Assembly: GCF_024496245.1 (NCBI RefSeq)
Contig: NZ_CP101740.1
Span: 2,479,501-2,543,500 of the forward strand
Source: Sphingomonas qomolangmaensis
GTDB taxonomy: Bacteria > Pseudomonadota > Alphaproteobacteria > Sphingomonadales > Sphingomonadaceae
DNA: 64,000 nt
Direction: 5' to 3'
The position numbers were made by a program, and so were the translations under genes. Shown here piece after piece: positions 22,852-59,043 of this stretch. Under the pieces are notes generated by a model, which was not told the origin of the DNA, searched no databases, and saw only the letters and a program-made list of their open reading frames with translations. How positions within the stretch are numbered: the first letter of the stretch is position 1; each line of letters opens with the position of its first letter.

Positions 22852-23198
22852 GGCCGTTCCCTTTTTCGCACCCCCCAGCGCGTTGACCCGGAGGATGAAG
22901 GGATGTGCCTAAGAAGACGTTAACGGATGCGGGATGGTATTGGCACTTCGGCGCAAATCATGAGCTGCGAGGGAAAACTGCACCGAACGCATGTGCAGGG
23001 GAGTACCGGCGGATCGTAATCGCCCGTCGCGCTTCCGGTTTGCCGATGAGAATGAGCGGGTTTAGCGCCGCCGCCCCGTTCGTTTCGAGCGCGGTCGAGA
23101 AACGGTCCTGGGTAGGCGCGCGAGGTTTCTCGACTTCGCTCGAAACGAACGGAGCCGGGCAGGAGCGGCTTGCCACTATCCCCCCTTGTAGGACAGCG
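22852..23198. other. intergenic region of about 350 bp with an inverted repeat
   Basis: No convincing gene is seen between the lipoprotein gene and the flavin oxidoreductase gene. The main content is the inverted repeat at 23076-23152, listed separately. The rest has mixed GC and no clear promoter. Confidence 0.6.
23076..23152. repeat. interspersed repeat, inverted pair (family A)
   Basis: Two 28-bp arms (23076-23103 and 23125-23152) are inverted copies matching at 26 of 28 positions. Each contains the core CGCTCGAAACGAAC (or its complement). Single copies of the same arm are found at 28596-28623 and 42425-42450, so this is a dispersed family. The pair can fold into a long hairpin downstream of the flavin oxidoreductase gene and could act as a transcription terminator or mRNA 3' stabiliser. 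Confidence 0.85.
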
Positions 23199-24311: not shown

Positions 24312-24360
24312 CGCCGCTTCGCGGCGCGGGCCCCTTCCCTCTCCCGCAGGCGGGAGAGGG
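24312..24360. repeat. palindromic repeat pair between lysC and the flavin oxidoreductase gene
   Basis: Two hairpins are seen: 24312-24326 (CGCCGC/GCGGCG) and 24337-24360, a perfect 10-bp stem CCCTCTCCCG/CGGGAGAGGG with a 4-base loop. The second resembles the CTCCC...GGGAG cores found inside leuS and at other intergenic sites. No T-run follows on the minus strand, so a classical terminator is not assigned. Confidence 0.75.
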
Positions 24361-54736: not shown

Positions 54737-54832
54737 GCATAGAATCTACCGTGCGGTGCTGCCCGCTCCCCCGCCCGGCATTGCCGACGGGGCGGCGTGG
54801 CGGTGCCGCCTCTCGACGGAGTTGAGCATAGC

Positions 54833-57418
54833 ATGGCGTCACGCTTCAATGCGCTGAAGGCGGATGCGGCGTGGCAGAAGGTGTGGGAAGACCGCGCCAC
54901 CTTCGCCGCGCGCGACGACAGCCCCAAGCCCAAGAGCTATGTGCTCGAGATGTTCCCCTATCCATCGGGGAAGATCCATATGGGGCACGTCCGCAACTAC
55001 ACGATGGGCGACGTGCTGGCGCGCTTCCGGCGGATGCAGGGGATGGAAGTGCTCCACCCGATGGGGTGGGACGCGTTCGGGATGCCCGCCGAGAATGCGG
55101 CGATGGAGCGCGGCGTCCATCCGGGCGGCTGGACCTACGAGAATATCGCGACGATGCGCGCGCAGTTGAAGCGGCTGGGCTTCGCGCTCGACTGGACGCG
55201 CGAGCTCGCGACCTGCGATCCTGCCTATTACGGGCATGAGCAGGCGCTGTTCCTCGATCTCTATGCCGCGGGGCTAGTCTATCGCAAGGAAAGCGCGGTC
55301 AATTGGGACCCGGTCGACATGACGGTGCTCGCCAACGAGCAGGTGATCGACGGGCGCGGCTGGCGTTCGGGGGCGCTGGTCGAGCGGCGGAAATTGTCGC
55401 AGTGGTTCCTGAAGATCACCGATTTCGCCGATGAATTGCTCGACGGGCTGGGGTCGCTCGAGAAGTGGCCCGACAAGGTTCGGCTGATGCAGGAGAACTG
55501 GATCGGCAAGAGCGTGGGGTTGCAGTTTCGGTTTGTGCTGAACCTCCCCTCCCGCTTGCGGGAGGGGTCGGGGGAGGGCCTGTCTTCGACCCAAACGCCC
55601 GAACATTCCCTCCCCCAGCCCCTCCCGCAAGCGGGAGGGGAGCAGTCGGTCGAAGTCTTCACCACGCGCCCCGACACGATCTTCGGCGCGAGTTTCGTCG
55701 CGGTCGCCGCCGATCATCCGATCGCGCAAGGGCTCGCCGACAACCCTCAGGTTGCCGCGTTCATCGCGCGGTGCAAGCAGGGGGGGACCACCGCCGCCGA
55801 GCTCGAAACGCAGGAAAAGCTGGGGTTCGACACCGGCCTCACCGCGACGCACCCGTTCGATCCGACGTGGCAATTGCCAGTCTACATCGCCAATTTCGTG
55901 CTGATGGACTATGGCACCGGCGCAGTGTTCGGCGTGCCCGCGCACGACCAGCGCGATCTCGATTTCGCGCGCAAATACGACCTGCCGGTGACGCGAGTCG
56001 TCGGTGATGGCGACCGCACCGATCCGCTGTTCGAGGGCAACGAGGCGTATACCGGCCCGGGCGCGCTGGTGAATTCGCGCTTCCTCGACGGGATGGACAT
56101 CGATGCCGCCAAGCGCGCGGTGATCGGGCGCGCCGAGGCCGAGGGCTGGGGGCATGGCACCACCGTGTGGCGGCTGCGCGATTGGGGGGTGTCGCGGCAA
56201 CGCTATTGGGGGACGCCGATCCCGATCGTCCATTGCGACGATTGCGGCGCGGTGGCGGTGCCCGCCGACCAATTGCCGGTGGTGCTGCCCGAAGATGTGA
56301 GCTTCGACATTCCGGGCAACCCGCTCGACCGGCATCCGACGTGGAAGCATGTCGACTGTCCCGCGTGCGGCAAGCCCGCGCGGCGCGAGACCGACACGCT
56401 CGACACCTTCGTCGATTCCTCCTGGTATTTCATCCGCTTTGCCAGCCAGCCCCAGGACAAACCGTTCGACAAGGCAGTGGCCGAAAGCTGGCTGCCGGTG
56501 GCGCAATATATCGGCGGGGTCGAGCATGCGATCCTGCATCTGCTCTACGCCCGCTTTTGGACGCGCGCGCTGCGGCATATCGGCAAGCTCGATGTCGCCG
56601 AACCGTTTGCGGGGCTGTTCACGCAAGGGATGGTGACGCACGAGACGTACAAATCGGCAAGCGGCAAGTGGCTGTCGCCCGAGGAAGTGCGCGACGGCAC
56701 CGAGATCGCGACCGGCGAGGCCATCACGCTCGGCCGCATCGAGAAGATGTCGAAGTCGAAGAAGAACACCGTCGATCCGACCGGCATCGTCGACCAGTAC
56801 GGCGCCGACGCGGTGCGCTGGTTCATGCTGTCGGACAGCCCGCCCGAGCGCGACCTGCAATGGTCCGAAAGCGGGATCGAGGGGGCGTGGCGCTTCGTCC
56901 AGCGGCTGTGGCGGCTGTTCGATGCGGTGGAGCCGGCCGAAGGCCAGGACAAGGCGCTCGATCGCAAGCTGCACCAGACGATCGCGGGCGTCGCGGGCGA
57001 TATCGAGGCGCTGCAGTTCAACAAGGCGGTCGCCAAATTGTACGAGCTGGTGAGCGCGATCGAGAAGGCGGCGCCTTCGGCATCGCGTACCGCCGCGATC
57101 CGTGCGCTGGTACGCATCGTCGCGCCCATGACGCCGCATATCGCCGAGGAAGCCTGGGCCGCGATGGGGGCCGAGGGGCTGATCGCCGATGCGCTATGGC
57201 CCGAAGTCGATCCGGCACTGCTGGTCGAGGACGAGGTGACGATCGCGATCCAGGTCAACGGCAAGTTGCGCGATACGCTGACGATCCCGCGAGGGATGGC
57301 GCGCGAGGCGGTCGAAGCCGCTGCGCTGGCGTCACCCAATGTGCTACGCGTCCTCGACGGCAAACCGCCGCGAAAGGTGATCGTCGTGCCCGACCGTCTG
57401 GTGAACCTGGTCGCATGA
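54833..57418 (+). CDS. leuS: leucyl-tRNA synthetase
   Basis: A class I synthetase of 861 residues. Signature motifs are [11 protein letters not shown] (about 43-52; HIGH type) and KMSKS (638-642). The editing domain begins [15 protein letters not shown] at about 274-288, with the TTRPDT threonine-rich editing site. Just before it, residues about 238-271 are an extra segment encoded by a palindromic repeat ([15 protein letters not shown]...PLPQAGGEQ) that keeps the frame and lies in the loop joining two strands at the editing-domain entrance. The enzyme is essential, so the insert must be tolerated. The ATG at 54833 is preferred to GTG at 54797. Confidence 0.97.
55544..55642 (+). repeat. palindromic repeat inserted in frame in leuS (family D)
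   Basis: Two 35-bp arms (55544-55578 and 55608-55642) are inverted copies with 33 of 35 identical positions, separated by 29 bases. Each arm is itself palindromic at its start (CTCCCCTCCCG/CGGGAGGGG). The whole element, 99 bp, is a multiple of three and adds no stop. It shows the same CCCG...CGGG cores as intergenic repeats in this window. Confidence 0.93.
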
Positions 57419-58928: not shown

Positions 58929-58952
58929 GCGTTAGGTTAACCCGCCCTCAAC

Positions 58953-59043
58953 CGTTGGTGCTGAGCTTGTCGAAGCAGTGGTGTTTTCCTTCGATTGGCG
59001 CCTGATAGAAGAACGGTGCTTCGACAGGCTCAGCACCAACGGC
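58953..59043. repeat. interspersed inverted repeat between holA and parB
   Basis: Two 26-bp arms (58953-58978 and 59018-59043) are inverted copies with 25 of 26 matches; each contains GTTGGTGCTGAGC. This type of repeat is widespread in alphaproteobacteria and gammaproteobacteria. Position between convergent genes suggests terminator use. Confidence 0.88.

Follow-up and report, generated by a model that had tools for sequence, protein, structure and literature searches.

Palindromic DNA has been inserted in frame into leuS, the leucyl-tRNA synthetase gene of the window (the whole 64-kb stretch of DNA that was analysed), and the insertion is confirmed as real. The same turn of LeuRS and one loop each in ValRS, the GlyRS beta subunit and RNase R hold several kinds of palindrome, and close relatives differ in what they carry there. 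The leuS insert is best explained as one copy of a REP-like palindrome composed of two imperfect hairpin units arranged head to head. Such non-autonomous palindromes very probably persist where a permissive loop has taken them up in frame, and are later nested or replaced by others. Under this explanation palindromes would land widely in the genome, and in indispensable enzymes only in-frame insertions in permissive surface loops would survive. The inserted peptide would be translated and mostly disordered, and turnover would proceed as new palindromes inserted into the resident one or replaced it. Over a genus, mobile palindromes would serve as a natural insertion-scanning experiment, marking the loops at which essential enzymes tolerate an additional 30-60 residues or so and the pace of turnover there.

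The palindromic element in leuS

Features of the element are listed in Table 1. The leuS open reading frame as listed opens with a GTG codon at 54797, upstream of the ATG at 54833 from which residues are numbered here, and its protein scored 995.8 bits against the NCBIfam model leuS_bact (cut-off 548.4). An earlier note on this DNA had described a 99-bp inverted repeat lying in frame in leuS with no stop, and both the arm search and the open reading frame bear this out: the leuS frame is continuous across the element with zero stops, and all six frames of the element are stop-free. The inverted arms given in that note were found again, but at 40 nt rather than 35 bp, with 90% complementarity and a separation of 19 nt. 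The site was likewise correct, but the added segment, given as about 34 residues at 238-271, comes to 33.

Table 1. The leuS element and its parts (window coordinates).
Feature	Position	Strand	Remarks
leuS, leucyl-tRNA synthetase	54833..57418	+	861 aa from ATG 54833
Palindromic element, 99 bp, in frame in leuS	55544..55642	+	residues 238-270
Left arm, 40 nt	55544..55583	+	inverted-repeat search
Small palindrome CCCCTCCCGCTTGCGGGAGGGG within left arm	55546-55567		22 nt
Spacer between arms, 19 nt	55584..55602	+	inverted-repeat search
Right arm, 40 nt	55603..55642	+	inverted-repeat search
Second small palindrome CCCCTCCCGCAAGCGGGAGGGG within right arm	55619-55640		22 nt

Among inverted pairs with arms of at least 18 nt and at most 150 apart, the leuS element is the longest in the window. 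RNA corresponding to positions 55535-55650 was folded and compared with 200 dinucleotide shuffles. The predicted energy was -92 kcal/mol versus -51.7 kcal/mol (sd 4.1) for the shuffled sequences (z -9.7), and none of the shuffles folded as low. A chance inverted repeat is ruled out by the 40-nt arms, by this z value and by the copies elsewhere in the genome that are described below.

In an AlphaFold2 model of LeuRS (mean pLDDT 77.5, pTM 0.70, 32 sequences), residues 242-269 have pLDDT values below 50 and lie between strands 225-237 and 272-277. The insert is therefore predicted as a loop of low confidence that joins two strands immediately ahead of the LeuRS editing region, in agreement with the earlier proposal of a tolerant loop between strands. 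Note that low pLDDT is to be expected wherever a stretch lacks aligned homologues, and that a few other stretches of the model, for example 157-184, also have low values. PDB chains of ∼180-230 residues, which we take to be isolated editing domains, align from residues 267-273 to ∼440 of LeuRS. Length variation at the turn is ordinary, since additional residues are aligned there in 6q89, the best PDB match, as well.

Copies across the chromosome

The genome to which the window belongs (G000) is a single contig of 3.43 Mb. The element region gave 84 matches in it, counting both strands, which correspond to leuS and 39 other places, one of them adjoined by one additional short piece. These counts cover the 40 of 107 candidates that were scored, and copies were inspected at about 50 places, a subset of the total. 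When the arm pattern was searched with up to two mismatches, 180 occurrences were found versus 10 for the reversed control; the 180 include a variant family, TCTCCCGC/GCGGGAGA.

The copies are variable in their interiors. None of the 39 other loops compared with the leuS loop matches it closely (best 62%). The loops of the glyS and carA copies are 97% identical, and the next best of the 780 loop pairs reaches 67%, a pattern to be expected if the whole element was copied or one copy converted the other. Among 38 full-length copies, length is divisible by three in 18, and in 37 two to five of the six frames are open.

For 41 copies with flanking sequence, 14 lie inside an open reading frame of gene-like composition, 12 straddle the border of such a frame and 15 fall outside. 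Several of the 14 sit at gene ends, which may reflect start-site calls. Copies deep within genes and in frame were found in valS, glyS, putA and rnr, identified by profile match, and in carA and metH, which were among seven further stretches. The rnr product scored 572.8 bits, below the RNase_R cut-off (597.85) and above that of its superfamily. An effect confined to aminoacyl-tRNA synthetases is ruled out by the deep copies in rnr, putA, carA and metH.

The arms had also been said to have cores in common with intergenic repeats of the window. One recurrence of the CCTCCCG/CGGGAGG core was found outside leuS (24340-24357, two mismatches), but shuffled sequence yields a mean of 1.1, and the claim does not extend to further repeats in the window, the copies being mostly elsewhere in the chromosome. 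The recurrence is itself one TCTCCCGC/GCGGGAGA palindrome and so belongs to the variant family, of which the genome has further copies elsewhere. Two more palindromes of the window (23073-23155 and 58952-59042) are of a TTCGA-rich type and by eye resemble the inserts in leuS of genome G003 and valS of genome G010. A separate observation concerns the C-terminal part of G000 GlyRS beta (locus L158), where a second apparently repeat-derived peptide (PAKAGVSG..APAFAGATG) lies within a stretch, approximately residues 745-850, that is skipped by most matches to congeners.

The LeuRS site in congeners

The segment between the NWIGKS and TTRPDT motifs was compared in 60 congeneric genomes; G000 is counted in this and the other genome totals. 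Genome G019 was left out (no full match), and leuS of G047 was not read by the script. The turn is short in 48 of the 60 (7-12 residues), and 11 carry an insert of 35-64 residues, measured as the scripted segment. In the remaining genome, G047, there is a frame change at the insert site, which may be an assembly fault. One ancient, vertically inherited segment is ruled out by the 48 short turns.

At a strict cut the 11 inserts fall into four clusters, and at a looser cut into three. The palindrome families named here are clusters defined in this analysis, and the family of the window element merges with two others at the looser cut. Where this family occupies leuS in other genomes (G029, G018, G024 and G058), it is read in a different frame from that used in G000. 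Among 80 named leuS loci (L137 excluded), one more palindromic insert was found, in Sphingomonas vulcanisoli, and in a further locus (L095) the loop is longer without being palindromic. The window family occurs in 35 of 61 genomes and a second family in 53 of 61; because the window family is so widespread, finding it in a genome that also has it in leuS is little evidence by itself.

These data support the reading proposed in the earlier note, in which the palindrome is mobile and protein-coding and sits in a loop that tolerates it. Mobility is indicated by the dispersed copies in G000, by the short turn of most congeners and by the deep in-frame copies in conserved genes; the opposite pattern, with the same segment in all close relatives and no repeat elsewhere, was not observed. 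The view of the site as an insertion also holds, but not as a single event: it has been occupied repeatedly by different palindromes.

Inserts in ValRS, GlyRS beta and RNase R

ValRS carries inserts at one loop, following the motif LGWPE, in 13 of the 57 genomes read. Rows for G024, G011, G030 and G014 are missing from the scripted reading; valS of the draft genome G024 has an additional insert with a broken frame, which may be an assembly fault. Inserts were found at one loop of GlyRS beta in 38 of 53 genomes read (G012, G043, G059, G054, G007, G025, G020 and G035 were left out). Each insert of LeuRS, ValRS and GlyRS beta was called palindromic if no more than 2 of 200 codon shuffles were as good, and 57 of the 62 inserts tested passed. 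The five that failed are in valS of G010 and in glyS of G032, G011, G055 and G036.

For RNase R, 20 loci from the 30 best matches were read, and 12 contain palindromic inserts. Outside the genus, GlyRS beta has inserts in 18 of the 29 best-matching loci (from 58 other genera), and 16 of the 18 are palindromic; the rate of insertion in this set should be considered biased, because the best-matching loci were read first.

Retention of palindromy in most inserts, together with the very stable hairpin (-92 kcal/mol), would be expected if the mRNA hairpin or the extra peptide were useful, for instance as a folding pause, for RNA stability or in tuning of editing, such that any palindrome landing there was kept. 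We consider selection of this kind improbable, because most congeners (48 of 60) make do with a short LeuRS turn, because families, frames, peptides and loop lengths all vary, and because a recent insertion would be palindromic in any case.

Turnover between close relatives

Presence and absence of inserts were mapped onto a tree of concatenated core columns, which required at least 7 changes at leuS, at least 8 at valS and at least 11 at glyS. In these counts gain and loss are not told apart, and glyS of G042 and valS of G024 were entered as inserts by hand.

The genome closest to G000 in the sample is G010, and the two carry inserts of different clusters at leuS, valS and glyS when the strict cut is used. 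The difference at glyS is the weaker one, since the looser cut joins the window family with the glyS family of G010. In leuS the inserts of the two genomes are 47% identical, versus 87% for the ten preceding codons and 92-100% for other segments. In valS the corresponding values are 49% for the insert and 92-97% elsewhere. The rnr palindrome of G010 resembles its G000 counterpart but encloses a further, structured element. Turnover at these loops looks fast.

A family that differs between related genomes could also arise by horizontal replacement of gene segments bearing different inserts, rather than by insertion in place, and glyS might be read in this way: identity between G000 and G010 drops downstream of the insert as well, to 85% and then 76%, in a region where other length changes lie. 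Such replacement is nevertheless very improbable as the general cause, given that in leuS and valS the loss of identity is centred on the insert (47% against 87-100% in leuS, 49% against 92-97% in valS), a pattern with which a short conversion tract is still compatible. Insertion in place, with nesting or replacement of the resident palindrome, is the reading retained.

Nested elements and tRNA 3' ends

A 64-bp element predicted to form a three-way junction is nested in resident palindromes in leuS of G022, glyS of G036, rnr of G010 and carA of G000 (loci L046, L309, L351 and L291). It consists of a 10-bp closing stem and two 9-bp hairpins. In an alignment of the four copies there are 28 pairs, 6 with changes on both sides, and 98.2% of cells are paired. 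Rfam was searched with four loci, three of which contain the element, and gave no match. By eye, metH of G000 and glyS of G060 have a similar architecture of other sequence.

In two genomes, G003 (L247) and G030 (L303), the glyS loop reads as a tRNA 3' end in frame, from the T-arm through CCA, and the same type is present at the glyS loop in two other genera (G088, L369; G103, L384). These tRNA 3' ends stand alone or precede a palindrome. The glyS loop of G040 (L315) may contain a decayed one. A search of the G003 and G030 genomes with the tRNA 3' end pattern, allowing one mismatch, returned the glyS copy only, and ARAGORN called no tRNA gene in the two glyS loci. Sequence identical to the G003 tRNA 3' end occurs in 74 viral-contig stretches, which does not settle its source.

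Nesting of this kind invites the alternative that docking is targeted, with the resident palindrome or the DNA of the bare turn attracting the next element, so that occupancy would reflect insertion preference more than tolerance. Three of the four nested three-way-junction elements follow the same arm sequence, CTCCCGCTTGCG, the glyS site is highly occupied (38 of 53 read), and tRNA 3' ends recur there in four genomes across genera. We regard targeted docking as possible, if somewhat doubtful: palindromes insert outside such loops too, as the distribution of the 41 G000 copies makes clear (14 within an open reading frame, 12 at an edge and 15 outside), and several families would need to have a preference in common. 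A broader version, which we offer tentatively and consider rather unlikely as it stands, is that the loops of LeuRS, ValRS, GlyRS beta and RNase R are long-lived docking sites in sphingomonads. The resident palindrome would mark the spot, to be invaded or replaced in frame by one newcomer after another (other palindromes, mini-elements with a three-way junction, tRNA 3' ends), and the peptide would change faster than the enzyme around it.

Relation to known systems and the question of a mobiliser

REPINs are built from a pair of REP-like hairpins in inverted orientation that flank a variable interior, and are present in many copies. The window element has the same organization, its two imperfect palindromes being inverted and enclosing an interior that varies, and is like the elements of REPIN/RAYT systems (PMC3116915) in its hairpins, its interior and its copy number. 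It is unlike them in its genome, G000, where Y1_Tnp (PF01797), the sole transposase family sought, gave no match. A RAYT-driven REPIN in G000 was rejected on this ground, with that family as the only one tried. Matches to PF01797 occur in 4 of 61 genomes, and that of the sister genome G010 is split over two frames. As a guess, the mobiliser could be a hairpin-recognising transposase that is only intermittently present or acts in trans. The findings pose a narrow question: what moves palindromes in genomes where the Y1 transposase search gave no match, and what singles out these loops.

Translational bypass elements (mitochondrial byps) are inserts skipped by the ribosome, and their frame and stops are free to vary. 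Bypass is disfavoured here because the frame is kept open in nearly all inserts, the exceptions being valS of G024 and leuS of G047.

E. litoralis and S. alaskensis belong to the Sphingomonadales. Both are named, together with X. oryzae, in the section of PMC3733652 on intragenic REPs as having GTAG- or CGTC-tagged REPs, often dimers, in tRNA synthetase genes. The window element is like these in being a palindrome inside an open reading frame, tRNA synthetase genes included. The earlier note had proposed an analogue in a sphingomonad of the palindromic elements of Rickettsia; the protein-coding palindrome stands, but on that section's evidence it is not new to the group. According to the same source, recB of two Xanthomonas species has REPs that differ although they lie at roughly the same site, and its section on intragenic REPs does not describe genus-wide turnover at several genes. 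The literature searched likewise gave no account of a genus in which several palindrome families turn over at the same loops of several core enzymes. Intragenic palindromes are thus a known kind, from Rickettsia and from the intragenic REPs of PMC3733652, and what is apparently new is that they turn over at set loops in several core enzymes. Short non-autonomous inverted repeats are also what the window element has in common with MITEs, which in Coxiella are said to bear on protein evolution (PMC5896051).

Rickettsia palindromic elements (RPE) are described in PMC3733652 as palindromic, repeated and inserted in frame in open reading frames that likely encode functional proteins. The window element, a dispersed palindromic repeat found in frame in conserved genes, answers to this description and is in that respect a protein-coding palindromic element; the likeness is one of description (palindromic, repeated, in frame). 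Several families at one loop are, by contrast, a feature of the sphingomonad case. Sphingomonads, as relatives that live freely, offer a setting for testing how coding palindromes of the Rickettsia type arose. RPE-4 and RPE-6 correspond to CGTC-tagged REPs according to the same paper, and the CGTC tag is absent from the window element. Membership of the GTAG/CGTC-tagged REPs is ruled out for it, neither tag being present: the leuS insert segment of G000 contains no CGTC, GACG, GTAG or CTAC. Unlike the window element, the glyS-site inserts of G047 and G009 look like CGTC dimers.
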